Source of the DNA: Gigantopelta aegis
Lineage: Eukaryota; Mollusca; Gastropoda; Neomphalida; Peltospiridae
Direction: 5' to 3'
NCBI RefSeq assembly: GCF_016097555.1
Contig: NC_054699.1
Span: 8,132,516 to 8,196,515, forward strand
Length of the DNA: 64,000 bases
Positions 12,928-64,000 of the stretch are shown here, piece by piece. Position 1 is the first letter of the stretch. Every line of letters begins with the position of its first letter. The notes beneath the pieces were generated by a model, which did no database searches, was not told where the DNA came from, and saw only the letters and a list, made by a program, of their open reading frames with translations. Made by a program: the position numbers and the translations under genes.

Positions 12928-13390
12928 CTGAAAATAACAAACCCAAATAAAACTTTATCCCTCAATCACTGTATTCATTGTCAATATATGATGACTAGAT
13001 AAATCTCTATCTTTTCGATCACTGACCAAAACTATAGGTCATGTGACATACACATGTAAGCCCGACTCGGCTCAAGTATTTTCAGACTAGATTTTCAATA
13101 AACATACCCTTTAAATCATTTGTTTTAGTACAGTAAATGGAAATAAATTTTAGTTTTGCGATAACAATACAAAACTTGTATGTTTGTTTATGAACTGGAG
13201 TTTAGAAACGCTTTTTGAAAGTGACAGAATGTAGCTAGCATCTTACAAAGAATGACGTCATGCATCTTGTTTGACGTCATACGACAAAAGCCTTGCTAGG
13301 TTGACGATACTCGATTTGCGACTAGCATACACAAAAATGGAATAAATAATGATTTTCAACTATTCCTGTAGGATTGCAGGATAAAAGAAA

Positions 13391-17853: not shown

Positions 17854-17936
17854 TAATTTTTTATCTATTGTATCTCATAAAAGCTATGGCCCTACTAGAG
17901 GTACATTCCATCTCCAAGAATCTAAAATATAATTAC

Positions 17937-23250: not shown

Positions 23251-23487
23251 TGAAAACTGAAAATTTACAGAAGGGTATCTTGAGACCAGATGTGTACTCT
23301 TCTGAATATAACTAGTGTCTCATCTGTCAGAATCAGTTTTCATCACAGTGTTGATTTATCTGCATCTGTTACAAAAGAAAATAAATAAATTAAATACAAT
23401 TATTAAAAACTGTCCGTATAACTATGTAGTAGTGTTGGTACAAAAAGCTCCTACTGGCAGCAGCTAAGTGAGATGTTCACTAGAAAG

Positions 23488-23590: not shown

Positions 23591-23700
23591 GGTATGTTTT
23601 TAAATCTGAATGACAAAACTGTATGCTCTGATCAAAATTGTATCTCTGCACAAGGCAAACGAAAGGACATTAGCAAAGTTGTGGCTGCTTCCATGGTCCA

Positions 23701-26700: not shown

Positions 26701-26745
26701 TGTTTTGTTTAACGACACCACTAGAGCACACTGATTTATTAATCA
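23701..26745. repeat. 132-bp tandem array, 23 nearly identical copies
   Basis: The unit starts CTTTCAGGTCCTCGAGAATA and contains CAGTTCCAGTACCCATGGCC plus about 45 bases of SINE tail (GTTTTGTTTAACGACACCAC). Copies look identical except one with a 9-bp ACCCATGGT insertion near 25875. Unit 2 holds one copy at 43530-43619. The array grew from the junction between host sequence and an inserted SINE. Confidence 0.97.
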
Positions 26746-28786: not shown

Positions 28787-28932
28787 TTGAAAAAAATCAT
28801 GATTTTTTTTTATTTACTTTAATTTGGAGCTTCTAAATTGAATACATGTACATGCTCCCTATTAAATACACGATTTGGAAGCTTCACTGCATTCTGAAAG
28901 GAAATACCTCGAACATCTAGAAATGAGGCAAC

Positions 28933-29132
28933 NNNNNNNNNNNNNNNNNNNNNNNNNNNNNNNNNNNNNNNNNNNNNNNNNNNNNNNNNNNNNNNNNNNN
29001 NNNNNNNNNNNNNNNNNNNNNNNNNNNNNNNNNNNNNNNNNNNNNNNNNNNNNNNNNNNNNNNNNNNNNNNNNNNNNNNNNNNNNNNNNNNNNNNNNNNN
29101 NNNNNNNNNNNNNNNNNNNNNNNNNNNNNNNN
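28933..29132. other. Assembly gap (200 N)
   Basis: Exactly 200 N at the left end of the LTR retrotransposon. The element's left LTR is probably in or beyond it. The 146 bases before it (28787-28932) match nothing else in the window. Confidence 0.99.
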
Positions 29133-32100
29133 GCACTGACCATTTCCTTCAGGGTGATAAGGTGTGGTCCTACTCTTTTTCACCCCATAAAGGGTACATA
29201 AACTGCTTATTACATCTGATTCAAAGTTTCTACCTTGATCAGAGTGTAATCGTTCTGGTGCACCGTATCTCTGAAACCACTCGGACACTAGTAACTTTGC
29301 TGTGGTCACAGCTTTCTGGTCTTTTGTAGGAACAGCCACAGTGAACTTGGTAAACACATCTGTCATGACTAAAACATGTTCTTTGCTACTTGAAGATGGC
29401 TCCAACACTGTGAAGTCCATGGCTACAATCTCAAGAGGTCTGGTAGCAATAAGATGTCCCAAAGGTAGTTTCAGTTTTGGTTGTGGCACTTTAGCCACTG
29501 CACACCTTTCACACTCTTTACACCATTTTTCAACATCTTTGTGCATACCAGGCCAGTAGCATCTTCTTCTAATACGACTCATGGTTCTTTGAAAACCTTG
29601 GTGTCCTGTCTGATTATGTAAACTATGCAGAACTTTCTCCTTCAACACACCAGGAAGTACTATCTGCTTCATACTTCCCAAGTTGGGGTCCTTTACTTTT
29701 CTGTAAAGCACATTGTTTTCAAGAAACAATCTGTCCCATTGGCGGATTAAGGTCAATACATCAGATTCTTCTAATCTTCTCTCAGCTCTCCATGGTTTCC
29801 TACCTCTAACCATGTAATGAAGCACTCTCCTTGTTAACTTGTCTTTTGCCTGCATCCCTGCTAGCTCTTCTAAAGAGTAGCTAGGAAATGATGTCGTGGC
29901 TTCGATAGTTTCACGAAACTGTTCAACTGTAACAGTTGGTTGTGTGGCTTCTCTTCCATCACTGTGTGTAGCCCGTCTCATCATTTGTGGAACTTCTGTA
30001 CCACCAGCAGTAGCTCTCAAAGCAGCTTCCACTGATGTAGATGTCATTCCGTGAAATGTCTTCCTGGATAGACCATTGGCATTCTTATTGTGTTTTGCCG
30101 AGCAATATTTCACATCAAAATCAAATGCTGCAAATTGAGACACCCATCTCTGCTCCACTGCACCTACGTTTGCAGTACCATGATGACTTAGTGGATTGTT
30201 GTCCCTATATATGGTAAATTTATGTCCAAGAAGATAATCTTTAAATTTTTCAGTCACAGCCCATTTCAGGGCAACTAGCTCTAACTTCATGGAACTGTAA
30301 TTGTTCATGTTCTTCTCAGTTGGTCTTAAACACCGGCTAGCATATGCAATTACTTTCCTTTGTCCATTCTGCTCCTGTGACAGTACTACACCCAGACCTT
30401 GAAAACTTGCATTCGTTTCCACAATAAAAGGTTCACTGAAATCAGCATACCCTAATATTGGAGCTGAACGTAACTTCTCCTTTAGAGTGTCAAAAGCATT
30501 TTGACAACTCTTATCCCAAGAAAACGTTAAACATGCTTGGTTCTTCTTGTCTCGAACCCTGCTCACCAAAGAATGCAAAGGTCCAGCAATATGTGAGATT
30601 CCTTTCACATACCATCTGTAGTAACCGGCAAACCCCAAGAAAGACCTCAAGTCCTTTGGTGTCTTTGGAACTTCCCACTCAAGAACAACCTTTATTTTGT
30701 CTGGATCTGTAGCTACCCCGTCGCTAGATATCACATGTCCAAGATATTTCACTTCTTTCCTTAGAAAACAGCAATTGCTTGTTTTCAGTTTGAGCCCATG
30801 TTGTTTTAAAATTTTAAATACCTCTTCTAATCTGTGGATGTGCTCATCAAATGAACTTGCATAAACTACAATATCATCCAAGAAGACTAGTAACATCTGA
30901 AATATCTGCACCCTGAAACAATGTTGCACGAGTCCTTGAGATGTGGCTGGTGCCCCTCATAAACAAAAACGCATTTGGTTGTATTCAAACAAACCCATTG
31001 GAGTGATAAATGCAGTTTTCTCTTTATCTTTATCCTTAACTGCAACCTGGTTGTATCCACTGGCCATATCCAGTGTAGTAAACCATTTTGCTCCATGCAA
31101 ATCATCTAATGACTCATCTATTCTAGGTAGTGGAAAGCAGTCTTTCCTAGTTTTAGCATTCAGCCGCCTATAGTCCACACACAGACGTATTGTGTTGTCC
31201 TTTTTTTCTCACTATAACAATAGGAGATGCATATGGGCTATGGCTAGGTCGAATTACATCTTGCTTTATAAGTTTCTTTATGTGCTCCTTGACTTCCTCA
31301 TACTGACTGGGTGGATTTCTTCTGTACGGTTGTGACACTGGTATGTCATCAGTTGTACATATTTGGTGTTTTACTGTGTCAGTAAACCCCAAATCCAAGT
31401 ATCATCTCCAACTTTTTCTGTCCCGACTTACCTTCCATTTGCTCCACCACAGCATAGCCACCCCAATTGTGCTTGTCAGTTTGACAGATAGCATCAATTA
31501 CAGCAGTAGACTCAGCTGGAATGCAGACTGGATGTTGTCCAGTAATTTTGACTGTACCTAAGACGCTTTTCGCCTGTTGGGCAGTTTGTAGACTGGTTAT
31601 CCAGCTTTGATGTACCGACCTGCTAGTCAGTTTCCTTAAGAAATTTTTACCGAGGTCTTTAGCCAGCAATTCTCCACATTGGCTAATAATATTCTGTTCA
31701 CAACCAAGATTCCTCTGTCAGGAACTAATTTGCCTAGTGCCTCGATATCCAGTTCAATATATCCACAGTAGGGAATATCCAGTCCATTGGCAGCCTTAAG
31801 CGAGAGCCATCCTTGTTTTACAAGGAGCTCAATACCAAGTGGAGCAAAGTTGTTGTTGAAGAAATCCTCGGTTATGGTAGTTACCATTGAACCAGTATCT
31901 AACAAACAATCAACTTGGACACCTTCCTTGGATACTTGAACTATGGGACAGTCAGCAACTGTTCTGGCAAATACTTGATCAGAAACAGTATCAGTACATT
32001 TCTCCTCCAATGCCCGACTCAAAACATTAGAAGGTTGAAGTTTCCTGCCTGATCTTGCTGGTTCTCAACCGAAGCTCGTCCTCTTGTGGTACTTCTAGGG

Positions 32101-34723
32101 TACTGACTTCTACCCCTTCTATTTGTCCACCTACCTCTTTGAGAATTGCTCTGTCTGTTTCTAGTGCAATCCCTAGCAAAATGGCCAGGGTTGTTGCAAC
32201 TAAAGCAAACAGGGAGGTTGAACGCTGGTGGAGAACTAGTCTGCTGAATATGTTGCATTGTACTTGCAAACATATCAGACAGATTTTCTATCTGCTTCTG
32301 CTTTTTTGAAACAGCTTCCCGTAACTCCACTAGCATAGGATCTGTTGATGGCAAAGAGGTGACATCTGCAACCACTGTCCTGGATGCTACTTTGTGTTTT
32401 GTAGCGGTGGAACATCCCATATCTTCTGACAGTTTAAAGGCTTCTTCTCGTAATTGGAGAAAGGTCATGTTATCTGACTGCCGAACTAATTGTTTCAGTT
32501 CTTTCTTCAGACTTGGGTCTCGTACATTTTCAGCAAACTGGTGCAACAAGGTATTATCCTTGTCAGGCACCATTGCTGCGTCTTTCTTAAACACTCTATC
32601 TAATACCTCAGAAAGAGAGTAAGAAAATTCTCTCAGTGATTCACCTTCCTTCTGTGACCGATCAAAAAATAACTTCTGAAGTTCATGCACCGATGATCTA
32701 TCTTCAAATATCTTATGCAAAACATCCCAAACCACCTCTGGATTTTCTTGGTCTTGCTGTGACTGCAACCTCATTTCTTCTTTCGCTCCACCTTCTAAGT
32801 GAGCTAATATAAAACTAGCCTGCTCCTTTTCTGCTAGGCTGTGATGTAGAAATGCCCTTTCTACCTGCTCCCGAAATTCTCTAAATTTGAGACCATTGTC
32901 TGACCCATTAAATTTGCTCACCTTTATCTCGTTTCCTATATAAAGTAAACGGGTCATTGGTTTAGTAGTCTTACCTTTGGCGCTGTTCTCACCTTGTTCT
33001 TTAGAACTCAGCAATTCCTCATTAAGCTGTAGAGTCATAGCCCTTTCTTTCTCTAAAGCAGCCTGCAACTCTGCCACCTGATCTTTTAGCTTTTTAGCCT
33101 TAGCCATCTTGGAAAGGTATTATAAATTCAAGTCAGCTGGGCATTCAATGATGTGTTACAGGAAACGAATCATGCAATGCTCATGCCAGAAGCCATTAAT
33201 ATATTTCCTATAGTTTTATTTAATATATTTAATTTGTGGAGGGTTTTTTTCACAACTTAATTATTTATTTGATTGCAAATCTAGTTTAGCTTTAAATTAG
33301 TTATTACTTATTGTAATAAAGTAATAAAATAATTTATTCTACTAACTTTATTTCTACATAAGTGGTTAACTATTTTCATTCAGCTAACTTTTTTAAGGAG
33401 TGAGCATATCAGGGGTTAGCTGTGTTATTTTTAGATTATAACTGACCTCTCCAAGAACCTTTATTTTAAATTTATTTGCTCACCAGATGCTCTTAATCGC
33501 CAACATCCACGGCCGTTTATCTCTGGTGTTTAATTATGCCATGGCTTCGGACCACCACCGTCCACTAGTGTGTCCACACATGTAAATAAAGAACCAGTCA
33601 TGTGAAATTCAACTCTGGACACCAACTTGCAGCTGGCCATAAAACAGTTATACGCCACGCCTCTTAATGCAATAACAATTTGTAGGGAGATTCCTCAGAC
33701 CACCACTTTTACAATTTTACAATTAATTCCCCCTTACCTATTTAACTTTAGCTTACTTATTAGCTTGTCAGAATACTTTGATTGAGGGAATGCCAGTATA
33801 GTTCAGTTACAAGTATTTAACTATTAAAACTGTACCTAGTAATATAACATATATTCATATTCATTCACATTCAACATTTCAAAATCACCTACCTTACATT
33901 GTTTGTGGCCAATAATAACAACAATATACATTTATACACCAAAAACACAATAACCAAATCAGTCTGTTAGTTGAATGTTAATTATACTGATAGTGTTAAT
34001 ATTTCTCCACCACACAATTGTAACCTCGGTGATAAATCTGGTCTCTCCACTACTGTTGTTTTAATGTTCTTTGATCTCCCCATCATTCTACTCCTCTGGC
34101 AACTTCACAACTTCACGAAACATCACAACTCCGGGAAACGTTCACACCTTTGAAAAACTTCACACCTCTGTAAATACTGGCTGTATAAGTCAGTTGTTAA
34201 TGATTCCATCCTATTAATGTTCATTAATGTCTCTTCTAATTACAAAGATTGCCAGTAGCGTTTATTTAATTGCAGAATTGTTTTAAACAAATGTATGTTG
34301 TAATCACGTAACATGGAATTTCGTTGCTTTCTTTCGTCTTCTAATATATTTACTGCTTACATCCACATACATACGCATGTCCAACATAACTGCCTTATTT
34401 TAACTGTTTATATGCATGAATTTTGCATCATTTTTCCTGATTTTGTCCCATCATCATTTATTATATCTTTGTATCTCTGTGCAAAATGCATAATTAATAA
34501 TGTATATAATATTATTTTCCTCGAAATATCCCTTCATCTCTTGTGAACAATCTTCATTTCCTATCCATCTGAATTTCTAAGTATATAGTTCCACAACAGA
34601 TTAAATATGTAAGTCTGTTAAAATAACTATATACACTTCTGTTAGTGTTACACAGTCTTGTAATAGTTTGCACCTTTCTTTTGGAACTTAATCCTGTATT
34701 CTTTTACTTGAAAATCCAGTTAG
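29133..34723 (-). mobile_element. Ty3/Gypsy LTR retrotransposon, broken
   Basis: Minus-strand element with parts in Gypsy order: Gag (32019-33107, with a CCHC knuckle CFSCNNPGHFARDC), aspartic protease (about 31636-32022, LLDTGS), reverse transcriptase (about 30700-31400, with a DD motif in [10 protein letters not shown]), RNase H (about 30000-30500) and integrase (29133-29750, with HHCC zinc finger and IVAMDF core). A primer-site-like TTGGTGTCCAGAGTTG lies about 33615, so 33630-34723 may be the 5' LTR; the other LTR cannot be seen because of the gap. It is a fossil with a small number of breaks. Long frames survive, so it is probably fairly young. It sits exactly between the two duplication units. 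Confidence 0.85.
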
Positions 34724-35236: not shown

Positions 35237-37650
35237 TCAATTGTAATCGATCAAGGAAACATAATGTTTTGCAAGTATTTTTTTCACATCTTCATTGCTG
35301 GAAGCGTAATCTAAGGCTGTTTGCCCATCAATGTCTTTAACAAACACATTCAAAATGTGCTTGATCAACATCTTCACCAAGGGAACGTTGCACCTTGTAT
35401 TTCTGCAGGCCAGATGTAGGGCCGTCTGGTGTTTGACGTTCACCTTGTTCACACAGACCCCAAACTCGATCAACGTCTCGACCATCTCCACGTCAGCCGA
35501 CCTATCACAGACGACATGAAGAGGAGTGTTCATTTTTTGTGAAGCTTTCAGAAAGTAATCTTCTAGGTCTCTGTCGTTCTCAAACTTTTCACACAATGTC
35601 CTCAGCACTTGAGAGTTTCCCGGTCTGGTGCAGGCCAGATGAATCAGCGAGCTGGCGCAATCTGGGTCTGCCACCATATATCCCAGATCCTGATCTGCCA
35701 CTGCATGCTCATGTTCCAGGTCCATCAGCCATTCCACCAACAGGGCATTAGAGCTGAGGACTGCAACATGAAGAGGGGTGCACTCATCTGTTCCTTTCTT
35801 AAACAAGTGGTGAGGATGGACTTTCAGAATCATCCTAACGATATCGGTGTGCCCACCAGAACAGGCTTCGTGGATTGGCAGGTTACCAGTTTTACTGGGC
35901 GTGGACAGACTGCATCTGTTTTTCATTAAAGTCTGAAATACTTTCACGTGGCCACACTTCGCAGCTATGTGACACGGCGTCCTGCCAAATTCGTCCTGCG
36001 TATTAACGTAGGATATGTCTGAATTGGCTTTAGTCAGGAGGAACACCACCATTTCGTCGTTACCGTGGAAACATGCAACATGAATGAGCTTCCCAGTATG
36101 TGCGACGTAATCACTTGTTATATCTGCGTTGGCAACTAGTTTCTTAGAGGTGAGAGTATTTTTAAACGGCACTGGAATAGCTAGCAAAGGTATTTTAAAT
36201 ATGTTGACTTCAAGACACTTATGAAGGAGATCCATGACTTCAACATTACCACAAATACAGCAGCCATTTGCAATCTGGTAGATGACGTTTGGCTCCAGTT
36301 TTTTCTTTTGCTTCTTGTATTGTTCTAAGATCGCCTTAAAGAAAATACAACGATCACTCCAAATGGCCCAGTACAGCAACGGCATGTGGCAATCTGTTGG
36401 TATAGACATCAGCAAGTTGAGCTCACCTATTTCTTCACAAGTCTTTATAAAATGATGAACGAACATCTTATGGGATAGAGCCTGATGCTTGCACACATGA
36501 ACCGGGCGTCCATCTTTAATCTCCTTGATAAACCGCCGTATAAGACCGGGATCACTGGGTTTAAGTGTCAGCTTATGCTTGTTCGCCAGTGGATGGTCCG
36601 AGATGATAACGTACTGATGCAGAAACGACACGGTGCAAATTCCGAGCAAATACTCAGAATGATTCTTTCCGTAAACCATGGAAACAGCGTCGTGAATAGA
36701 CAGATGTGCGAAAACAAAATGATCGGAATTCCTAATCAAGTAGGTTCCAAGGAGATGAGCTGCTGAGCGTTTTATTGTCGCAAATGTGACACTGGTCGAA
36801 ATTCCAACCACCGTTAAATGAAATCATTTTTCATCATGCAGGTCGGATTTTTTATTGTCGTCCAGAAGATTAGTGTCTAACATTCCATTTGTTACCATGG
36901 TGAGAAGAAGCGCTCCAAATTTTGTCTTGTTCTCCTCATTATACAACAGACAGATTTCTTTTTCAAAACACTCAACAGGGTTGTTAAAGAAACGGACAGC
37001 ATTGTCTACCGTATGTAAATGTCGATCTTGGCAAAAGCACCTGCAACAGCAAGGAAAATTAGATAAAGTATCTGAGCTTAGTATGGCCTTAACAATGTCC
37101 ATTCCAATTTTATCATTCAGATTATGATGTTTTATATGCTTAGACAGCATTGCGCTTTTTTCACGAACACTTAATTTTCCGTCGTCAAGCTCCTGGACAA
37201 TGTCGACAACTTGAGTCCAGTTAAACAATGGAAACTTTTGAAGATGAGGCAATGCTTCCCTCAGCACGTGCATGCGGAGAGTAAAAATTATTCTTTTGGT
37301 TTTCGCATCTATCATAGACTCCATGTTTAGTATTTTCCACTTTGAAAATGCTTTCTTATCGAAGTCGTTAAAACCGAAGATATCTTCCATCAAAATAACA
37401 TGATGGCTGTCTGGTCGCACATGTTCTCGCCATTCACGCGGCGACTTTAAACAGAGCGGTATCCACACGTTATCACGATTTGATATACAAACAGATTTAG
37501 CAAGCTTTCGTGCCATCAGTGTTTTTCCCGAGCCAGGAGGTCCAACAAGAAAGATAACTCCTTTGTCTTTCAATAGCTCTTCTGCCACATTGTAACTTGA
37601 GGTCTTTGCGAAAAGTTCCTCCTCAAAATTCAGTTCCCGCAAAGTCTGGC
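35237..37650 (-). pseudogene. STAND-type NTPase with ankyrin repeats, terminal exon (copy 2), in-frame stop
   Basis: Closely similar to 10412-12927 over its full length and in the same frame, with a retained Walker A GPPGSGKT, VILMEDIFG and the same ankyrin repeats. Acceptor CTTTCAG precedes the exon at 37650. A TGA at 36824-36826 interrupts the frame where copy 1 reads CGA; surrounding lengths are equal, so this is a substitution, not a frameshift. The NTPase core (279 codons) is thus separated from the rest (524 codons). The 27-bp loop repeat is not expanded here. Since everything else stays open, the stop is recent, a polymorphism, or an assembly error; a truncated NTPase could still be made. 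Confidence 0.85.
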
Positions 37651-37745
37651 CTGAAAGTAACAAACATAAATAAAAATATATTTGTACAGGTCTCAGACAT
37701 GGGCTTAAACTTTGTTTACATCCCTAAATGATTTCATGGTTCAGG

Positions 37746-41667: not shown

Positions 41668-41855
41668 ATCAAGGCAGTGGTGGGATGTAGCCCAGTGGTA
41701 AAGCGCTCACTTGATGCGTGGTTGGGTTGGGATCGACCCCCATTGGTGGCGCCATTGGGCTATTTTTCGTTCCAGCCAGTGCTCCACAACTGGTGTAACA
41801 AAGGCTGTGGTGTACTATCCTGTCTGTGAGATGGTGTATGTAAAAGATCCCTTAT
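41668..41855 (+). mobile_element. SINE fused to the truncated exon
   Basis: Head GGTGGGATGTAGCCCAGTGG through core GTAAAAGATCCCTTA, cut off and joined directly to exon sequence at about 41855. Marks the edge of the deletion in unit 2. Confidence 0.88.
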
Positions 41856-41871
41856 CCCACACCTATCTTAC

Positions 41872-43081
41872 TATCAGTGCTGTCTGCAGGTTCCAAATTT
41901 AAACTTTGTTCATCTAAATTCTCTTTTGTGGAAGTGGATTTCCCTCCTGTTCCCACTCCAGTCATAACGTCAGAGCTATCTGCATGTTCCAAATTAGAAA
42001 CATCCACATCCACATCCAATTCAGTCAGATTAGATGTTCCTGCACCCATCTTATTATCTGTCCTCTCAGCAGATTCCAAATCTGAATTCCATTCATACAA
42101 ATTCCTATTTGTTTGATTAGATTCTCCTCCTATTCCAACTCCAGTCATAGTATCAGAGTTACCTGCATGTTCTGATTTAAAAACGTTTACATCCAAATTC
42201 CTTATTGTATGACTGGATTCACTTTCTACAGGTGCTATGTTCCTACTTTCCTTCATTCCCTTCAGAGTCATCCTAGAAGAGGAATCTACAAATTCTGACT
42301 TAGAAACATTCACATCCAGATTGTTTACTTCATTGTAAACAGCTGGACCTTGTGACCAGGGGTCATGACTTCCTTTCCATCCAACAGGTCTAGAATTGTT
42401 ATTATTACAAGTCTTTATGAGATGTTCTTTCTGGAATGGCATGAAGGGCTGTTGATGATCCTGATCTGGATGTAGTGGACCTTCACTTCCATCAGGTTTC
42501 AAAACAACAGACACAAATCCTTTGTCAGATGGATCAAATCCACCAAGGTAACTACAGTTGGAATCATCATGATCAACAGGCAGTGTGTTCGACAAACCAG
42601 GTGCAAATAAATACTGACGGTTTACTCCCAAGATGGTCAAAATCTCGTGTAGATTTTGTACTATCTGGTCTGACCGTTGATGGTCCGTCTCGATATTGGG
42701 CTCTCCATGACCTGTCTTGATATTGGTGTCTCCTTGATCTGCATTGTTATTCTTATCTGAAGCAGTTACACCACGACCTAGAATTGGACGTGGTCTTGAT
42801 GGGCGACATGGTGTGCATGGGGGAGGTTGTCTGGATGGGGGATGTGGTGTGCACGGGGCAGGTTGTCTTGATGGTGGGCTAGCACTCCATGGAGCAAGTG
42901 AAGCTGGTAGTTCTCCATCTGTACTGGAGGTACTCGGTTCCTGTGACAACTGTGGCAGCTGACTAAAGTTACAGGCCAGTATTGATCTGTGCTGCTGTCC
43001 CTCTCGAACCGTCTGCCCTTCAGAAATGTTCATCCATGTTGGGGTTTGATCATCTTCATTTGGCAGTTCATCTTCATCCAT
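41872..43081 (-). CDS. Truncated low-complexity exon of the STAND/ankyrin gene (copy 2)
   Basis: Begins with the same start (MDEDELPNEDDQTPTWMNIS at 43081) and stays open for 409 codons to a stop created at the SINE junction (41852). About 4 kb present in unit 1, including all the 67-residue repeats, is missing. A strong donor GTAAGA at 41866-41871 ends the exon in phase 1, the phase needed to reach the exon at 40230, so splicing could in principle bypass the SINE. It has a 13-residue insertion relative to copy 1 (VTASDKNNNADQG-like) after the Pro-rich stretch and lacks some later segments. Function unknown. Confidence 0.6.
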
Positions 43082-43317
43082 TGAAAACTGAAAATTTACA
43101 GAAGGGTATCTTGAGGCCGGATGTGTACTCTTCTGAATATCATTGGTGTCTCATCTGTCAGAATCAGTTTTCATCACAGTGTTGATTCATCTGCATCTGT
43201 TACAAAAGAAAACAAATAAATTAAATACAATTATTAAAAACTGTCTATGGAATTATGTAGTAGTGTTGGTACAAAAAGCTCCTACTGGCAGCAGCTAAGT
43301 GGGATGTTCACTAGAAA

Positions 43318-46785: not shown

Positions 46786-47960
46786 TTACCACGTTGGATC
46801 CACAAAATTCTCAGAATGGTTTACTGTCTCGTGTGTATATCCAAGTCCTAACTCAGTGATTCTGTTGTAGGCAGCCCATAAATCAGAAATTATTCTAGTA
46901 TTTGGCCTGATATGCTTTTGTATCAGTGCCAATAACGTATTAGCATCCCGTTTGGCAACAGGCACTAAAAAAAAAATTCTAGTCTCGCGACAAATGCCGC
47001 CAAATACCCATTGCCCATCAACACATCTCCCACGGTGGTATTTACGTTTTCCGAATTTGCACTCGTCTATTTCGACGGTGCACCCGTCTCCTCCAATTAT
47101 ATTGTCGGCATTAGCTTCTAACTGTTTAGCAATCAGTTCGCGACAATAGTTGAAATAGTCCACTACAGTTTCACATGAAGTGCTTTTGTTTTTGCCTTTC
47201 AACTCTTCCTCAGGTATACTTGATTCTATTTGAGTGTCCTCGATGGATTCTTTCTTGGCGAAACAATAAAGAATTAATAAAGTTCGTCTAATTGAGATAT
47301 TAGACGCCTGAAACCAAGTGCCTTTTCTCAGTTGCACTTGATTTTTACTCTTGTTTTTGCAAATTTTGCGATTACATTGGAATCGGTATACAGGGTAATT
47401 ATGATTTTTCTGATTGATACTCAATAATTTTGTTAACTCATTTTTACAGTTCGGACATTTAGCTTTAGTTGGCAGTAAACCTATTTTTTGAGAAAATTCG
47501 ATAGCTTTAATTTCACTGGAAATATTCAATGATAAAGTATAGAAATTATAAAATTGGCTAACAGAAGGGTTCAACTCAGTGATATTAGTTTTCTGTACTC
47601 GTACTGGCTATTGGTTCCTCCAAAATGTTGTTATTTATTTGACTGACATTATCCGTCGGCTGTAAATGTGACACACTTTGTCCGCAAGGAATCACCACAT
47701 CATCATTGTCACTGCTTGAAGAAGACGAAAACAGACTAATACTTTTATCTGTAGACAAATCACTATTACGAAATTTTTTTGGCCTGAGGTGAAAGGTTCG
47801 TCAATAGAAGAACTGTCACTAGTGAAAAGACTTAAACTTTTATAATCTTTCCGAGTTTTCTTAATATTTTCTGATACTAATTTTTCTTTTAACATACGTT
47901 TTTTACTCATTTCTACAAATGTAGCAAAGCAGGAACAAACACTCACCTTTATCTTTTTTT
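46786..47960 (-). pseudogene. Merlin-type (IS1595-like) DNA transposase, degenerate
   Basis: The main open frame 46786-47574 (262 codons) has an N-terminal zinc ribbon (CPNCKNEL, later FQCNRKICKN) and an ISXO2-like DDE core: IDECKFGKRKYHRGRCVDGQ with the first acidic residue, IISDLWAAYN with the second Asp, and GYTHETVNHSENFVDPTW just before the stop. Family members normally continue with an Ile-Glu-Ser block carrying the last Glu, which is missing here, so the copy is cut short or an intron begins at GTAATT. Upstream, related Ser/Asp-rich sequence (MSKKRMLKEKLVSENIKKTR about 47910, and a piece ending STSTEN at about 47590) lies in other frames, implying about two frameshifts. Terminal inverted repeats were not found. 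Probably an inactive transposon. Confidence 0.8.
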
Positions 47961-53564: not shown

Positions 53565-56500
53565 CTAGGAAGAGACTGTGCCTTTTTCACCAGTGTTACT
53601 GTGCGATGACTCGGAACTGAAAAACAAAAGCAATAGCGTTACGGTCAATTCATTGTTTGACTGCCAACCTTATGTGAAAATGAAATTTTTTTTTTTTTTT
53701 ATTAGGTAAATGAAAAAGAGTTAACGAACGCATACCAAAATTTAATATGAACTGTGTTAAAACCACACTGACTTCACTGAAAAAAGAGGATTAGGTTTGA
53801 TGAGAACCAGAACTGGGTGAGTCAACTACTCGCCAACAAGAGTCGGCAGTGAAATATGAATCCACCTTTAAAAACACAGCAATCTAGAACATTACAAAGA
53901 CCAAACATGATTTAAAGGTACTTTCCTGAGTTTTCGGCGATTTTAATATATACACAGAGAACGTAATACTTTAACAAGTCTAACAAAGAAAATTCCAGTA
54001 ATTAAATTTGATAATGTTTTTGTAAACTGCAAGAAATATTTTGTTCAAAATTGTGTTCGTGATTTGCTAAGCACGTTTCAGAGATTGCTACACAAGTTTT
54101 TTTTACTGTGACTGTCTAACAAAAAAAAGATAATCAATCTTTAAATTTATTTAAAAAAAATAAACTTAACACTAACCGAATTTCATCTGTGGTATTCTGA
54201 GGACAGCCATCAAGAGGGTGGATTTTCTTAACACAGTGGATTTTCGTCGGAGGTCTGAAACACAAACCATTTATTACACTTCACATTAGGGGCCAGGGTG
54301 TCATGATACACCTACCTCACAATATGATACAAATCATAATACATAACCCACAATACGATACGTATCACAATTCCAGATTCACAGTGTTTACCCCATAAAA
54401 CAAAAAAGCTGAAACTTAGGTGAAATGATTTAAAAATAAGAAATGAACATGACAAAAGGAAAAAGCTGATTAAACTGTTTCAGTGTAGAAATATCACATA
54501 ATACATGGCTCTAGATCTTAACGGGAACGTTTGTCTTTTATGAGTGCAGGAAGGTAGAGTTGTCAATAGTCAGAAATGGATTTCAAGTTGTTCGCGTTTA
54601 GTCTCTACATGTCCGAGCCTGTCCTAGCAGCACTGGAAGATTGACCGCCCCACTCTAAGAAGAAATAGGAAGCGGGGTCGGCCCCTACTACTCTTTTTCT
54701 AGACTTTACCTTGCTTTATAGTGATACCATCTCGTATCCTCCGGAGTCGGGCCCGTCTGCACCACTATACCAACCCATGACGACTGGACTATACCCTAGT
54801 CTGATACTCTCTCTCGTTCAGACGGATCCGGCTTCTCAAGATCTGTATTTCAGCACAGCACTACACCTTCAACGTCTATCGACTGTCAATCTAGGGGTTT
54901 TCTTGACGGGATGCAACCCATCTCGTCCCTTTAAGCTGTGCACCCAAATGGCCTTAACGAGGCCACTCGCGTGGACATATCGATCAGACTTTAAACTTTT
55001 AGATCTGCATTCAAAATTTTATGTCGAAATTACTTCTCTTTTTTTTAATATTATTAAATAGTCCGATCTTTTCTTCTTTCTCTTATTTAATTTTGGAGTG
55101 TGTTGAGTGCATCGTTAAATAAAAAAATTCCTTCCTTCTTTAGTAAAATTAGTAATGGTAGTACAGTACTGGGGGGAGGGGGAGGGGGGTGTGCATGTGG
55201 GTGGGTGGTGGGGGCAAGTGAAGCCGGATTATGGGAAACCATTTAAGATAGTAATATACTGACATCATATAAATTCATATTGTAAGGGGAGCTAAAAATA
55301 ATTCCCCTTGTCTTACGGGAGTGATGGGGTGCGAAAGTGATAGCTCCCTTAAAAGTGCTATATCAAGGTCACAATAATGGCGGTTCCCACCAAAAATATT
55401 TAAAACATTTTGCTTTGAAACATAAAGTTTATACATTCAGGGGCCTAATTCACAAAGGTCTTTTAGGCTCTGCTAGACAATAAAGCATCCTCTTTTAAGT
55501 CTTTTAGCATTGCACTGCAAGATCGCTAAGGTCTCTTAGGCTCTGCTAGACAACAAAGCATCCTCTTTGTAAGTCTTTTAGCATTGCACTGCGAGATCAC
55601 AGTTGCGATAGTTTAGTGAATTAGGCCCCAGCTATATGCTTATAAAAAATTACAATAGTTACTAAATAATTGTAGAATTGTTTTTTTATTTTAGTGGGGA
55701 ATTAATTATGGAAATATTATGTATGTGATCAATTAATTTCTAGTTATTTACTACAAATAAAAGGTGAAAATAACCAAATATTGTAGTTTCAACTTTGACA
55801 TAGCACCTTTAAATGGTAAGGTCTGAAAATATAAATAATCCCAAAATCAAAATGAACAATTAGCATAATTTAATCACAATTAGCATAATTTATTCACTCA
55901 GCATAATTAATTCCCAATTACTATGATAATAAATTCTTACTGCTGACAGTCATCATCGGGAGGGTTGTCGAATGCCAGTCTCTTAAAACTTTTTGGTGTT
56001 GTGCCCGTCACTGAAAACCGCTTGGTCGGTGACAAACTGTCGTTTATCGTCTGCAGCTTGTGGTGAGACTGGAAAGGAAAGGAATGTCCATTTAATGATA
56101 GTCCATCATTTTTTCCAGGTTTGTTGGGTTATTAATGAAAATAAAAATTCTGTGGAATTCGCCTACCATAAACATCCATAGGTGCAACCATAAACCAAGT
56201 TTGATGAAAATATGAAACAAATGTTTTGGTCCACTGTGATGCACATCCATAGGTGCAACCATAAACCAAGTTTGATGAAAATATGAAACAAATGTTTTGG
56301 TCCACTGTGATGCACATCCATAGGTGCAACTATAAACCAAGTTTGATGAAAATATGAAACAAATGTTTTGGTCCACTGTGATGCACATCCATAGGTGCAA
56401 CCATAAACCAAGTTTCACTGACCTAGGTCTGTGAGAAACTGATCTCAGTGCAGATCTTTTATCGCAAACATTGATGCCAGGACCACCACAAAAGTACCTT

Positions 56501-59500
56501 TCCTTTTTATTTCATAACGGTGAGACAAAAACAGACACATACAAACTGTGTAGATCAGTGAAGATGTCTACATAAAAGTTTGCCATGCTTTTAAAAAAAA
56601 CTTCAAACCCCGATAACATGAAAAAAATAAGACACTCCTTATAATCAGGGGTGGGAATTGGTGAACTGTAAAAAAAGAGGAAATCTAGAGGGGTCCCGGA
56701 AATTCTTGAAATCTTAGGTTAAAATCTGTTCAAGCTGATACATTTTAGAGGAAAGGACGATTAAAATGTGAGGAGACGCAATGTTCCATGAGAGGAAAAC
56801 AGCTGATCCGAGAAGAATTCCCACCCCTGTACAATTGAATCTGAAATACACAAATTAATAATAACACCAACAAGTAAATTTCAGACATTTCTAAAATGTT
56901 AAATAGTAGTTGAGGTAATGAATTTTTCAAATTGATTACCAACTGTATAAGCATAATTGTAAAAACAAAAACATTTCCGGTCTCCTGGGGGTTTTTTTGG
57001 TGTGTTTTTTTTCGAGTGTTTTTTTCATTTTTGTTTCTTTAAGGGGTTTGTTGCTGTTGTTGTTGTGTGTGTGTGTGTGGGGGGGGGGGGGGGGTTGGAG
57101 GGATTAAATGGACAGTAAAACATCGCATACACCAAATCCCTCGCCAAAGCTGTACAGCTGTCTGGTGTTGGGGGTCAGCTGACTCGGGGACGGTGGTGAT
57201 TTGAACGGAGATTCTTTTAGTGGAGAGATGTAGAAGTTTTTACGACCTGGAACACTGGAAAACACAAACAAAGACGACATTACACAACTAAAAATATTCA
57301 AAAATGATAATGAACAAATCTTTGAAGCAAAAACAGATAACAAGAAGAAGGAAATGTTTTATTTAATGATGCACTCAACACATTTTATTTACGGTTATAT
57401 GGCGTCGGATAAAAACAGATAAAGTATATTTACTAAATTAAGCTTTTCCTTGGAGTAAATAAGTCACTTTCAGGATAATAAAAAAGGAGGAAAATGGATG
57501 ACAAAACAACAATTCCTGCCATTTTGACTTTTAAAATATTGAAATATTAACAGTAAAAGAATTATGAAAGGAAGCAACAAACTTAATTAAAATAAAATTA
57601 ATTAAAATCTACAACATCCATTAAGCTGAAGTCAAAATAAAACTGCTTAAAGTACTAGGAATAATAATGTGACATGTGAACCAACACCAGTGCAAGGTAA
57701 CAAAATAGGTAGTAACTCAGACAGATCAACAGACGGACGGATATACGAGGTTCAGCAGGGCTAACTCTGGCACTTGCCAAATTTGCCAATTGCGAATTTT
57801 GAAAACAATTAGCAAATTTTATTTTAATTTGGCGAAATAATTTTATGTAATAGTTGATATGTTGATACAAAATAACTGGGATTTTGCAATTGTTTAAGTT
57901 TAATAGATAATTTGGTGAAATTTTCTGCTGACCCAGAGCTAGCCCTGTTTAGATATAAATTCAAATGGAAATAAGCACACAAGATTCCACAAGAACCTGA
58001 AAACTGGAAATAAGCACACAACATTCCACAAGAACCTGAAAACTGGAAATAAGCACACAACATTCCACAAGAACCTGAAAACTGGAAATCTGTTATTATA
58101 CGAACCTGAAAACTGGTGATGCTGTCAGTTTTACTGATTTGGTGGGGATTGGAGACAACACTGGTGTCTGAAATAAAAGAACAATGGTCACTGTAACATA
58201 TCTACTGTCAATTCTTACAGCATGTATCACTCCCAGCCATGAACAAAACAAGAACAAAAAAGAAAAGAAAACAAGGAAAGGCACATTTGTTAAACGACAC
58301 CTCAGCACATTTTAACCATTTGACTACTGCAGGCAAGATATCTCGCCCGACGTCACGCCAGGTGATATACTGTAAACTGTATATAGTGCATTCCACAATT
58401 CATATTTCCCACCATTTTGCACACGACACTCACTGGAAACAATTGTATAACAGGAAAAGGAAGACAACTTAGTTTTTGTTTTTTCAATGGTAAATGCCTT
58501 GGAATTTTGAGTTGAAAAAGTGCTTTTTGACAACAATGGCGGCACGTCACGGTCATTTTTAGGGATCGATGGCTGATTGTGACAGCTAATTTGATAATAA
58601 ATTTGATTGTTTTACCAATAACGATGATCACGGTGAGTTTGTTGACTGAGAACTGGAGTATGTAGTGCTTCATGTTGTTCTGAAAGATCTTGTTGTAGAA
58701 GCCGATAATGAGATCAAGATAGTAAGAACTTACGGTGAGTTTGTTGACTGAGAACTGGAGTATGTAGTTCTTCATGTTGTTCTGAAAGATCTTATTGTAG
58801 AAGCCGATAATGAGATCAAGACAGTAAGAACTTACGGTGAGTTTGTTGACTGAGAACTGGAGTATGTAGTTCTTCATGTTGTTCTGAAAGATCTTATTGT
58901 AGAAGCCGATAATGAGATCAAGACAGTAAGAACTTACGGTGAGTTTGTTGACTGAGAACTGGAGTATGTAGTGCTTCATGTTGTTCCGAAAGATCTTATT
59001 GTAGAAGCCGATAATGAGATCAAGACAGTAAGAACTTACGGTGAGTTTGTTGACTGAGAACTGGAGTATGTAGTTCTTCATGTTGTTCCGAAAGATCTTA
59101 TTGTAGAAGCCGATAATGAGATCAAGACAGTAAGAACTTACGGTGAGTTTGTTCACTGAGAACTGGAGTATGTAGTTCTTCATGTTGTTCTGAAAGATCT
59201 TATTGTAGAAGCCGATAATCGAGTCCACGTCCTTCTCCTGTATATACACAGTCTTGTACACCTGGTGACAAACAAAATAGACAGTCACTCAGCAGCTAGG
59301 ATCCAGGGCCCGGTAACACAAGACAGTCGTAACACTTACGTCAGACGTACATCATACATAACGTGTGGTGTATGTCTGATGTAAGTGTTACGCATGCTTT
59401 GTGTTACTGGGCCTAGGTTCTAAAAAACAAAATAAACAAACACTCAGCTGCATCGGTCTCTTGTAAAATATGACCTGAATTGTTTTGGTGGTTTTAGCAG

Positions 59501-62500
59501 GTGAATTTTTATTTTATCTGCTAGGTCTAAAAAATGGACTGCTCTTCTCTTTTTGCAGGCCGCTATTTCAAACCCTGGTCAATGTTTTTATCAAGTGTTA
59601 AAACAAGCATGGTGTCTAGTAATCCATGTACTATAAACTATGAGCTCTGGTAACTTATAGGTTACAACACACTTCCTTATTCAATTTATTACTAAAGCAC
59701 TTCACAGAAACAACTTGTTCTTGTTTATCACATATTTCAATGGTCGTCCTTTGGTGAAAAAGGCAATTTCGGTGAAATTCAGGGTTTTTTCAGTTTAATG
59801 ACTAATTTAACTAGTTTAACTAATTGTTTTGAACATGTGGATAATAAAGAAAGTATCATTCACGCTACAATCACATGAAAATTATGAAACTCATTTGAGA
59901 ATTGTGTCATACCTCTCAATCTCACCCAGGGAATAACATAATCTAGTATTGGGTGAGCAGAAAATTTCATCGAATTATCTTTCAGACTTCACAAATCACA
60001 AAAACCAAGTTATTTTCCATAAAATCAATTGTTACCGGAAAGGTTTTCTCAAAAACAAAATTAAGCTTTGCCAACTGTTTTTCAAACTTTGTAATTAGCG
60101 AATCTGGTGAGTGTTGGAGCTAGCCTTCATAATTAACAAATTGGTTTGGTAATTTCCGAACGATCATCGTGCTCGTGTAATAATCTCAATATCTCACCTC
60201 CTGTTCTGCGTGTGGCAAGTTGCGGTACATCTGTACAATGTGTTTGAACTTGATCTCCTTGTCCGCTACCTTGCAGATCGCATACAGAGAACACATCATT
60301 ATCTGTAATAGAAAAATGAACACATCATCCACTTCCTAAGTGAAGAATAATCAGGGCTTCTACAGCGCTCAATTTTTACGGTCATCTGTGACGACCTAAT
60401 ATTCAGTCAGGCAACTTAATTCTATGATACTAGTTGCCCATCGGTCGACTGGCTTTTTTTTTTTACACTAAAAGGCGAGTTGTGTCGCATAATAATGTGT
60501 AGTTTTCTTGCCAAAAATCACTTTTAAACTGTCGTTAGTAAAGCGTCAGTCAATCAGTCAAAATCATGTGGGTTTGTTTGCCACTCGGAACTCCTCAGCC
60601 GATTCTGTGAGACATCGGGAAAAATCGTAATCAGCTGAAGTGTTCTGAATAGTAAACATCCCAGTGCATTCAATTGGAACATAGAGTGCATTCGATTGGA
60701 ACATAGAGTGCATTCAATTGGAAAATAGGTCATGTGTCATCAAATCATAAAAATCTTAAGCAATTAGGCCCTATGTGTACATGTGTATAACTACAAACAT
60801 TTAAAAACATTATTAAAAAGTAAAATATTTTATTGTCAGACAGTACATATGACATTTTACATTGACAACATATTAATTTCAAACTTGTTGGTTGCTGTTT
60901 TATTGGAATATAAATATAACTTTATTTTTAAAACAAGGATGAAATCAGGGAAACAAAATTTTTGGAGTGGCAACCTCAATGTGAACCCATACTTGCCCTC
61001 TGGGCAAGCGATGAAAATCCTTAAAATTGAGCACTGCTTCTAGATTATGGTAGTCTCACTGCCATAGCTAGTGATATTCAATGTTGGGCTAGTAAATAAT
61101 TACTACTGCCTTGCCCGATGGCTAGTGAATTGTTTTGGGGTATATTGTAAATATAAATATCCTGACCCCATCCCAACCCTCTATGTTAGTGTTTTTAAGC
61201 TCTATCTCCCTCATTAGGAGACATACCTGATTATTACTTTTATTTAGTAAAACTGCATTAACTTAAAGTAAAGTATGGCTAGTGAATTTTTAATCATGGC
61301 TAGTAAATTCGAAAAAATCACTTATCCCATGGCTAGTGGATTAAAAAAAATTTCTAGAAGCCTGGAATAGATCGGTCTTTCCAAAGCTAACGCGTGCAGA
61401 ATGACGTCATTTAGTAAAAACTACGTCAATAAGTTTCTTTTTCCGCCATCTTGACCAAATTATTGCGTTAATATTTTGTTCCAGCCAGTGCATAACTGGA
61501 ATATCAAAGACCATGGTATGTGCTATCCTGTCTGTGGGAAAGTGCATATAAAAGATCCCTTGCTGCATTAGAAAAAAATATTGTGGGTTTCCTCTGATGA
61601 GTCAGAATTACCAAATGTTTGACATCCAATAGCTGATGCTTAATTAATCAATGTGCTCTAGTGGTGTTGTTAAACAAAACAAACTTTTATCTTTTAAAGG
61701 GACAGACCCTAGTCTCAACCCGTGAAAATTAACACTAAGTTTAGTTAAAGGGACAGACCCTAGTCTCAACCCATGAAAATTAACACTAAGTTTAGTTAAA
61801 GGGACAAACCCTAGTCTCAACCCGTGAAAATTAACACTAAGTTTAGTTAATCTATAAACCTGGAACACATTTGGATAAAGTTACAATTGAGTGAAACATG
61901 AGTCTGTGACTGTGAAATGGTGAAATACTCTCTAAAACTCGACTCCATAACTGTTACTTTTCTGACGCACGTGCATTTTAAAAATATGACAAATGCATTT
62001 TGTGATATTAAAAACACCAGGATGAGCACAAACACTTCGAATATATGGAAATTAATAATCTAAACAATAAAATCTAAGTAAAGACTAAAGTATGATTTAA
62101 GTGATCAAAAACGGCTCTAATAGTCACAAATATGCACTAGTGTTTAAAAACTAGGGTATGTCCCTTTAACACCCATCAGCTGACTGCACCAGAAACCTCA
62201 CTGACCACGCAAATCACAGACTAACCTGATCTATGTGTCGGTTCTTCACCAGCCCAGGTCTGTTGGTTATGCAGAACTCAAAACACGTCCACACCTTCTG
62301 TTGCTGAAATAAATAAACAGAACCATATACTAGTAGCCATCGAGTGGTATAAATCTTGTGCACTATTAACAAGTGCAATGAAGAACATGTCAAATTTATT
62401 TTGCACAAGAATATATATACCACGAGACTGCGTAGCAGTCAAGTGGTATGTTCTTTCACAAAATAAACAAGTGCAGTAAATAGGAAGCAAAAACAACGTA

Positions 62501-63035
62501 TGTGAAGTTCTGTATTTATTACATGCCTTCTTTTATGTTTTATAAAAACAGCTTTAATTTAACGTCATAACAACACTTTGTTAAATCTATGATCAAAACA
62601 CTTTTTATGGATTTACTTAACATTAAAAAAAATACTCTGCGGCAGCCTGGTGTAATGTTTCAGATACGATGTGACGTCATTTATAAATCATATATGACGT
62701 CAGTAAATAAAAGGTGTTAACTGCAATAAAAATAAAAAGGGAATTCCCCATTTAAAAGTTCCAGTCCAGATCGCACATATGTGCAATACAAAATGTCTTT
62801 ATCACCACAGTAAGATTGAATAGGTATGTAATCTTTTTATTTTATTTAATGCACTGGGTATGTAATAAAACAATATTTCTACACTAAAATTGTGGGAAAT
62901 TACCACAAGAGTTACCGGCAGTCTGAAAGGACGACACAAGTGAAAGTGATAAATTCCTGTTGTTACTTACCAAGTCTTTTGAAACCTGCAGCATTGTGCA
63001 CAACTTTTGGATTCTGTGGTAACCAAGACGACAAA
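53565..63035 (-). CDS. RB1: Retinoblastoma protein, B pocket and C-terminus (nine exons, 5' end off window)
   Basis: RB proteins bind E2F and repress cell-cycle genes until phosphorylated by cyclin-CDKs. Exons in gene order: 63035-62971, 62303-62226, 60302-60198, 59261-59142, 58167-58106, 57254-57131, 56068-55941, 54254-54177, 53616-53565 (TAG). All join in phase with AG/GT borders and give 268 residues. B-pocket landmarks are present: [12 protein letters not shown] keeps the Cys, Tyr and Lys equivalent to human C706, Y709 and K713, and IIGFYNKIF keeps the Tyr-Asn of the LxCxE groove (Y756, N757). The C-terminal part has CDK-type SP/TP sites ([29 protein letters not shown]) and [10 protein letters not shown], like the docking motif of human RB. 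The long B-pocket insert of p107/p130 is absent, favouring RB1. Exon 54177 is the least certain. Confidence 0.94.
54540..55137 (+). repeat. Retroposon-like sequence sharing the type B SINE tail
   Basis: Compositionally distinct, GC-richer block (TCCGAGCCTGTCCTAGCAGC ... ACGGATCCGGCTTCTCAAGA) ending GTGTTGAGTGCATCGTTAAA and TTCCTTCCTTCTT, the same end as type B SINEs. It has no tRNA head. The open frame at 54711-55061 matches nothing recognised. It may be the 3' end of the LINE whose machinery moves these SINEs, or another SINE family. It lies beside the RB exon at 54177, in the intron. Confidence 0.5.
55440..55629. mobile_element. MITE with GGGGCCTAATTCAC inverted ends
   Basis: Perfect 14-bp terminal inverted repeats (GGGGCCTAATTCAC / GTGAATTAGGCCCC). 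Inside is a tandem duplication of about 70 bp beginning GGTCT-TTTAGGCTCTGCTAG. It lies in the RB intron downstream of exon 55941. Confidence 0.85.
56172..56410. repeat. 71-bp tandem array, 3.4 copies
   Basis: Units start ACATCCATAGGTGCAACCAT at 56172, 56243, 56314 and 56385. Intronic, about 100 bases upstream of the RB exon 56068-55941. Confidence 0.95.
57060..57095. repeat. (GT)n and poly-G tract
   Basis: TTGTGTGTGTGTGTG followed by 14 or more G, 36 bases past the donor of RB exon 57131-57254. Confidence 0.9.
57351..57412 (-). mobile_element. Type B SINE tail fragment
   Basis: Reverse: AAGGAAATGTTTTATTTAAT, CACTCAACACATTTTATTTA, CGGTTATATGGCGTC. 5'-truncated copy. Confidence 0.75.
57756..57947. 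mobile_element. MITE, CAGGGCTAACTCTGG ends
   Basis: Terminal inverted repeats CAGGGCTAACTCTGG / CCAGAGCTAGCCCTG with interior TTATTTTAATTTGGCGAAAT, matching 16617-16811. Confidence 0.8.
57990..58110 (-). repeat. About 40-bp repeats copying an RB exon end and its splice donor
   Basis: On the gene strand, CCAGTTTTCAGGTTC (end of exon 58167-58106 plus its donor) is repeated three more times downstream, spaced about 40 bp with CTTGTGGAATGTTGTGTGCT between; the first interval is shorter. Confidence 0.9.
58632..59219 (-). repeat. 102-bp array copying an RB exon with its splice donor, six copies
   Basis: Copy ends lie at 58632, 58734, 58836, 58938, 59040 and 59142, exactly 102 bp apart. Each carries the 3' part of exon 59261-59142 (IIGFYNKIF to SVNKLT). 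The upper five are followed by GTAAGTTCTTACTGTCTTGA, a strong donor. The frame is open through all copies (34 residues per unit). The lowest copy is followed by GTGATC instead. Confidence 0.96.
59305..59414. mobile_element. Palindromic MITE-like element
   Basis: AGGGCCCGGTAACACAAGAC is mirrored by GCTTTGTGTTACTGGGCCT, with inner GTAACACTTACGTCAGAC / GTCTGATGTAAGTGTTAC. Arms about 50 bp; in an RB intron. Confidence 0.75.
59415..60197. other. RB intron, no other feature seen
   Basis: A faint CAGGGCT-family MITE remnant may lie about 60060-60130 (GTTGGAGCTAGCC). Confidence 0.4.
60303..61471. other. RB intron, mostly unannotated
   Basis: A short 24-bp triplication (AACATAGAGTGCATTCAATT) lies at 60665-60725. 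Around 61060-61340 the motif ATGGCTAGTGAATT recurs. No exons seen. Confidence 0.45.
61472..61688 (+). mobile_element. SINE, type A tail, head missing
   Basis: TTCCAGCCAGTGCATAACTG to GTTGTTAAACAAAACAAACT. Confidence 0.88.
61694..61855. repeat. 51-bp tandem repeat, three copies
   Basis: AAAGGGACAGACCCTAGTCT ... AACACTAAGTTTAGTT, adjacent to the SINE tail. The phrase recurs inverted near 62150 (CTAGGGTATGTCCCTTTA), so the region 61694-62170 may be one repeat element. Confidence 0.85.
62304..62970. other. RB intron, no other feature seen
   Basis: AT-rich, with scattered TGACGTCA-like motifs near 62670-62700 but no repeat structure. Confidence 0.4.
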
Positions 63036-63221
63036 CTGAAATGAAACCATTATAAAAATAATTATCAAGATAAAGCAACTGACCATAGTTGTTAAGGCGG
63101 TGTAAAATATTTTCATCTATTATAGCTTTTTTTACAGTTATCTAACAGGTTACTTAAACGTTTTATTTAAATTATTAATTTTGGCCAATCAAATGAGTTT
63201 TGGACTGTCCTGGTCTTCATA

Positions 63222-63537
63222 CTAGCTTGGTAAAGCGCTCACTTGATGAGCGGTCGGTCTTGGATTGATCCCCATCAGTGGACCTATTGGGCTATTTCTC
63301 GTTCCAGCCAGTGCTCTACAACAGGTGTAACAAAGGCTGTGGTATGTGCTATCCTGTCTATGGGATGGTGCATATAAAAGATCCCTTGCTGCTAATCGAA
63401 AAGAGTAGCCCATGAAGTGGCGACAGCAGGTTTCCTCCCTCAATATCTGTGTGGTCCTTAACCATATGTCTGATGCCATATAACTGTAAATAAAATGTAT
63501 TGAGTGCGTCTTTAAATAAAACATTTCCTTCCTTCGT
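63222..63537 (+). mobile_element. SINE, type B tail
   Basis: Truncated head (AAAGCGCTCACTTGATGAGC), B-box region, core, AGTAGCCCATGAAGTGGCGA and tail TTAAATAAAACATTTCCTTC. Confidence 0.9.
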
Positions 63538-63547
63538 ACTAGCTCAA

Positions 63548-63858
63548 AGGGTAGATGTAGCCCAGTGGTAAAAAGATCACTTGATGCGCGGTCGGTCTTG
63601 GATTGATCCCCATCAATGATCCCATTGTGTTATTTCTCATTTCAGCCAGTGTACCTAGAATGGTATATCAAAGGTCGTAGTATGTGCTATCCTGTCTGTG
63701 GGATGATACATATGAAAGATCCCTTGCTATTTACGGAAAAATGTAGGATTCTTCTCTAAAATTATATGTCAAAATTAGCAAATGTTTGACATCAAGTAAC
63801 CGATGATTAATACATTAATGTGCTTTAGTGGTGTCATTAAACAAAACAAACTTTAACT
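63548..63858 (+). mobile_element. SINE, type A tail
   Basis: Head GGTAGATGTAGCCCAGTGGT through tail GTGTCATTAAACAAAACAAA. It follows a type B copy by ten bases, so the two tail types can be compared directly. Confidence 0.9.
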
Positions 63859-64000
63859 TTGAAATAGCTTAAATTTAACTGAGGCTAAAAAAAAGGTAGA
63901 TACCACCAAAAAAAAAGTGGTTGGTGGCTATAATACTTTTAAAATGAAAATAATATAATTAATAGTAAATAGTCAAAAGGTTTTTACGTATCGAAAGTTA

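Follow-up and report, generated by a model that had tools for sequence, protein, structure and literature searches.

Splice donors carried by minisatellite units have been reported for the human gene IFI6 (6-16, G1P3), for which donors from two downstream repeat units are described (PMC4526556); the same minisatellite is the subject of the work of Turri, Cuin and Porter (1995, NAR 23:1854), as cited in PMC2572611 and PMC3618361. A tandem genomic duplication across an intron-exon boundary is described for a potato RdRp gene (PMC4974935). Arrays of this kind are already known; literature searches for donor-bearing repeat arrays, and for retinoblastoma together with Gigantopelta, found no papers. 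The array analyzed here resides in a retinoblastoma (RB) gene of the gastropod Gigantopelta aegis, the genome of which is described as 1.15 Gb in size and organized in 15 pseudo-chromosomes (PMC7895826). The window, that is the whole stretch of 64,000 nucleotides under analysis, corresponds to positions 8132516-8196515 of contig NC_054699.1 (C1) in an assembly of 1,149,253,464 bases and 5216 contigs. The array is probably a minisatellite of recent origin that arose across the border of an exon and an intron in a conserved RB gene and is mostly spliced from the first donor.

The array is found on the minus strand and consists of six copies, 98% alike, with an exact period of 102 bp, as confirmed in the assembly. 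Tandem Repeats Finder (TRF) places it at 58630-59219 (5.8 copies, 98% matches, no indels, score 1131, far above chance), and copy-by-copy comparison agrees with the six-fold repeat and the period given by the first-pass annotation of this DNA. Each unit is made up by 78 nt from the end of an RB exon followed by 24 nt of intron, the register beginning at 59219. The exon (59261-59142) ends in CTCACC/GTAAGT (slash at the splice border), and the intron part opens with GTAAGT in copies 1-5, the donor ACC/GTAAGT being identical in the five copies said to have kept it. The exon part of copy 6 is instead followed by GTGATCATCG, with no GTAAGT. The components of the array are the following:

59142..59261, minus strand: pocket-B exon of RB, 120 nt, in phase 0 at the 3' end, where the final 78 nt make up the exon part of copy 1.
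59118..59219, minus strand: copy 1, 78 nt of exon and 24 nt of intron, donor ACC/GTAAGT with its G at 59141.
59016..59117, minus strand: copy 2, candidate donor GTAAGT at 59039; if used, a 222-nt exon and 34 additional residues.
58914..59015, minus strand: copy 3, candidate donor GTAAGT at 58937; if used, 324 nt and 68 additional residues.
58812..58913, minus strand: copy 4, candidate donor GTAAGT at 58835; if used, 426 nt and 102 additional residues.
58710..58811, minus strand: copy 5, candidate donor GTAAGT at 58733; if used, 528 nt and 136 additional residues.
58632..58709, minus strand: copy 6, exon part only, ending at 58632 as ACC/GTGATC, GTAAGT lost where a dispersed element adjoins.

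The copies are 0-3 exon-part differences apart. Over the six copies 4 of the 78 exon-part positions vary, two silently (AAT or AAC, GTG or GTC) and two with replacement (CAG or CGG, Q/R; AAC or CAC, N/H); GTG is confined to copy 1, GTC common to the other five. Variation in the intron part is restricted to one of 24 positions across copies 1-5, and was observed in copy 5.

The assignment of the exon to pocket B of RB is borne out by a three-exon query, which matches human RB in the PDB with a best E of 2.9e-6, all 10 distinct sequences at E<=0.001 being named retinoblastoma; on the array open reading frame (ORF) alone, the RB_B profile scores 26.3 bits, just under the cut-off of 26.9. Both the A and the B pocket domains of an RB1-type pocket gene are present, three of the nine matches of the RB_A profile and two of the three of the RB_B profile falling on C1, all above cut-off. 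Conserved exons follow the order of human RB, a fragment of which was used for the alignment: they lie at 62.3 kb (E 0.002), 60302-60198 (E 7e-11), 59.26 kb (E 1.8e-6) and 57.25 kb (E 4e-7). The match of the exon immediately downstream of the array is weaker (E 12), with LSPIP kept. The gene is called intact with reference to the exons examined, all of which are open and conserved.

58106..58167, minus strand: next RB exon, 62 nt, acceptor TTTATTTCAG/A, donor CAG/GTTCGT.

The repeated exon segment aligns with IIVFYN of human RB, the YN of which are Y756/N757, contacts of the LxCxE peptide. A helix of the LxCxE groove is repeated, as the first-pass annotation had stated, but a lone copy of the helix is not a second groove. 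The further statement that the repeats are added to the pocket is overstated: in the alignment with human RB, the insertion falls between ILQYASTR and PPTLSPIP, after pocket B and not inside it. Repeats placed there would separate pocket B from the linker carrying cyclin-dependent kinase sites, and should not break the fold, because the insertion point follows the last pocket-B helix. The structure predicted for the array (209 residues, one sequence) is a beta-solenoid, the mean predicted local distance difference test score being 74.5 in the best model and 48.8-58.4 in the other four. Since the homologous RB segment is helical, the solenoid is regarded as an artefact of repetitive input, and nothing was drawn from it.

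Seven donor positions were considered, at 59141, 59039, 58937, 58835, 58733, 58631 and 58433, the last in the adjoining element; they would end exons of 120, 222, 324, 426, 528, 630 and 828 nt, respectively. All seven are in phase, the lengths being divisible by three, and no stop precedes any of them, in line with the earlier claim of a preserved frame. The reading frame remains open across every copy as far as 58353, a span of 302 codons counted from the acceptor; array and element up to the GTGAGT at 58433 form one open frame of 276 codons, ending at an in-phase donor. Frame preservation is real, but its weight had been overstated: given the base composition of the window, the 24-nt intron part keeps the frame without a stop with a chance of ~0.19, and the outcome of that single event is inherited by all copies, so that the open frame is weak evidence of function. 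The array is tolerated because its period is a multiple of three, and this is not a sign of use.

Donors and acceptors were scored with simple matrices. The array donors score 2.09, each of the five falling within the highest 3.6% among the 522 GT sites given a score at 55,000-64,000; the donor of the next exon scores 0.76. The best AG within a unit scores 0.51, to be compared with 4.52 and 8.13 for the real acceptors at 59261 and 58167, and the earlier remark that no acceptor accompanies each copy stands. Lacking an acceptor, the copies are not exons; as no good acceptor is found in the units, the array would probably give rise to no new intron.

Downstream, the last copy runs directly into the interior of a dispersed element, and the sixth GTAAGT is missing for this reason. 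Aligned with five copies, the piece in the window represents the 3' ~320 bp of an element of ~675 bp, of the TTAA type, the ends of which read TTAACCTTTAGACTACTG and, inverted, TTAACCTTCTGACTACTG; the first half was not found within 55,000-64,000. A 16-bp deletion had been considered as the cause of the lost sixth donor, and was dropped because the sequence after copy 6 is element interior. Among the genome matches listed for a 1.7-kb query, 39 of 42 fall at query positions ~660-1018 (40 of 6424 candidates scored). The dispersed repeats located next to the array or its exon are the following:

58311..58630, minus strand: 3' ~320 bp of the dispersed element (full ~675 bp), ends TTAACCTT..TGACTACTG, with an in-phase CCA/GTGAGT at 58433.
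59297..59400, minus strand: dispersed palindromic repeat, ~35 nt upstream of the acceptor of the array exon.

The TTAA-ended element is apparently present in high copy number, as the 1.7-kb query returned 6424 first-look candidates. Its contact with the array, the in-phase GTGAGT inside it and the donor-side array of the next exon (see below) come in addition to what the first-pass annotation had reported.

The make-up of the unit shows a tandem duplication, in which the initial 24 nt of intron were linked to the exon at a position 78 nt before its end. Slippage or unequal exchange may then have raised the copies to at least six, and a later deletion or rearrangement presumably fused the last copy to the interior of the TTAA-type element, at the junction observed, removing the sixth GTAAGT. 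Most transcripts would be spliced from the first donor, minor use of donors 2 and 3 adding 34 or 68 residues between pocket B and the C-terminal linker, where an insertion should be tolerated. The introns flanking the array exon measure 936 and 974 nt; exon definition with introns of ~1 kb favours short exons, hence the 120-nt exon and the first donor.

Several points weigh against predominant use of the first donor. Where equal donors compete in experiments, the one nearest to the downstream acceptor is often favoured, and would be that of copy 5; the literature searched on choice among equal donors yielded nothing settling the question. The GTGAGT of the element scores 3.04, higher than the array donors. 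Of 5000 mononucleotide shuffles of the 197-nt element piece up to 58433, 0.84% are open; in the matching frame, each of the five other element copies examined is interrupted by one or more stops ahead of the corresponding position. An open element frame is what exonization would leave, and this frame, noticed post hoc, is the best hint of it. Given the preference for the nearest donor, leakage to, or even dominance of, later donors is possible.

The most probable alternative, which we consider possible although clearly less probable than predominant use of the first donor, is a partly exonized array, in which several donors would be used to give a ladder of RB protein lengths (+34, +68 residues and so on), possibly polymorphic among individuals, in the manner of IFI6. 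The five donors are identical, in phase, preceded by no stop and high in rank among the GT sites scored; insertion after the last pocket-B helix should spare the fold; and the human IFI6 array is described as giving donors from two downstream units (PMC4526556). The ladder would include exons of 426-528 nt. Such lengths are unusual between introns of ~1 kb, and the differences among copies, two synonymous and two replacement, show no purifying selection. Unlikely is the more extensive case in which array copies and element piece would be exonized together in frame, as an expandable part of the protein ahead of the linker with the cyclin-dependent kinase sites, the number of 34-residue repeats differing between individuals or tissues. 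The amplified tumour-suppressor helix may be consequential, but this view is unsupported.

An error of assembly or consensus, by which the array would be collapsed or inflated and the copy number wrong, is improbable. For this assembly, PacBio subreads are described as having been assembled by Canu and wtdbg2, with Racon and Pilon used for polishing (PMC7895826); polishing with 150-bp reads can misjudge the copy number of a 102-bp array, genome searches place the array at a single locus (one of them scored 40 of 6424 candidates), and a second RB1-like contig stops before the array. Corrected reads, described as at least 8 kb long (PMC7895826), however span the 0.6-kb array, the copies differ at five positions, and no N run is found in or near the 3' part of the RB gene. 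That the array is not a trivial assembly duplicate, as first proposed, is likely, yet unproved, as the second contig ends before it. The latter, the unplaced contig C2370 (20,348 bp), carries a second RB1-like copy with RB_A exons, which feature amino-acid differences, and is 90-97% identical to C1 in aligned blocks; it is either a diverged haplotype or a recent duplicate. The match to C1 ends at C2370:15002, equivalent to position 66,841 in extended coordinates and ~7.6 kb short of the array, and the RB_B profile search detected no B exon on C2370, so that this contig offers no second allele against which to count the copies. A 52-bp array at extended positions 82458-82723 has 5.1 copies on C1 and ~13 on C2370 (from staggered matches), and arrays of the RB gene therefore vary in length.

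Splicing between units, from the donor of one copy to an AG of a later one to give part-unit cassettes, is very improbable: AGs are found in every unit, and the Q/R difference (CAG or CGG) makes or removes TTTCAG/A, but in-unit acceptors do not exceed 0.51, far below the two real ones, TTTCAG/A, tried as a cryptic acceptor switched by that difference, was rejected with a score of -1.04, and the shortest such intron would measure 54 nt.

Tandem arrays are ordinary in this repeat-rich genome. In 14 arbitrary 10-kb stretches, taken as base rate irrespective of gene annotation, TRF found 63 arrays of period at least 10, covering 15,559 of 140,000 bases (11%); the RB gene region (55,000-86,000, 31 kb) holds 19 arrays and 8,426 array bases. 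Counting one unit per array, the 31 arrays of period at least 30 make up 1.6% of bases, and the 22 of them that reach three copies 1.2%. Given 1.2-1.6% of bases in founding-unit equivalents, and the 21,438 genes reported for the species (PMC7895826), some founders including an exon donor are expected; with several introns per gene and no selection, hundreds to thousands of donors would lie inside founding units, a figure to be read as an upper bound. The next RB exon underwent the same kind of event, its last 11 nt and donor being duplicated in a 39-bp array:

57966..58089, minus strand: another array on a donor side, 39 bp x 3.2, in which CCAGTTTTCAG/GTTC of the exon end at 58106 recurs, with in-frame stops.

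Besides a weak donor, each 39-bp unit features TTTCCAGTTTTCAG/G, which resembles an acceptor and scores 6.15. A minisatellite of 4.5 kb, in which a 48-bp period recurs in 93 copies, is found in the RB gene region at extended positions 69354-73830, and also on C2370.

Elsewhere in the window, related frames with nSTAND3-like nucleoside triphosphatase and ankyrin repeats are found at 10412-12961 and 35237-37723, the second split over two ORFs; Pfam domains were found for 10412-12961, and ankyrin only for 35237-36823. An ORF of 1811 aa at 17884-23319, with no Pfam match, features coding repeats of 201 bp (67 codons) at 20355-21711, and has a shorter relative at 41852-43150. The two pairs suggest a segmental duplication in the window. 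A 132-bp unit is repeated in 23 copies, 99% alike, at 23699-26745. The ORF at 46786-47607 has an ISXO2/IS1595-like transposase domain (DDE_Tnp_IS1595, E 4e-9), and retroelement-like frames (by eye, reverse-transcriptase/integrase-like and gag-like) at 28917-33119 are broken at 28933-29132, where the assembly has a gap.

The RB array is a good test case on account of its long coding unit, its element-truncated end and the conserved gene in which it lies. Should the additional donors be used, length polymorphism made by a minisatellite would be tolerated in a core tumour suppressor, and the five identical donors, spaced by 102 nt, would be a natural test of spliceosome choice. If they are unused, the locus shows how arrays can overgrow exon ends in a repeat-saturated genome with no visible harm to an essential gene, and is a clear case for asking how frequent such overgrowth is genome-wide.

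Compared with known systems, the RB array is closest to a donor-bearing minisatellite, as it starts from an exon end and carries ACC/GTAAGT in five of six units. It shares with the IFI6 minisatellite the presence of extra donors in the array, which in IFI6 are described as giving longer mRNAs. The two differ in that the IFI6 unit is short (12 bp) and donor use is reported in transcripts, whereas the RB unit is 102 bp long, includes 78 nt of a conserved coding exon, and provides candidate donors. As described for the potato RdRp gene, the tandem duplication spans an exon-intron border and copies splice signals; in potato, however, the acceptor side was duplicated once to give a new intron, while in the RB gene the donor side was amplified six-fold, donors being duplicated, AGs weak, and 54 nt separating a donor from the TTTCAG/A of the next copy. 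Tandem exon duplications giving rise to alternative exons likewise repeat an exon segment in frame, but each of their copies has its own acceptor and donor, and the copies of the RB array come without the acceptor.
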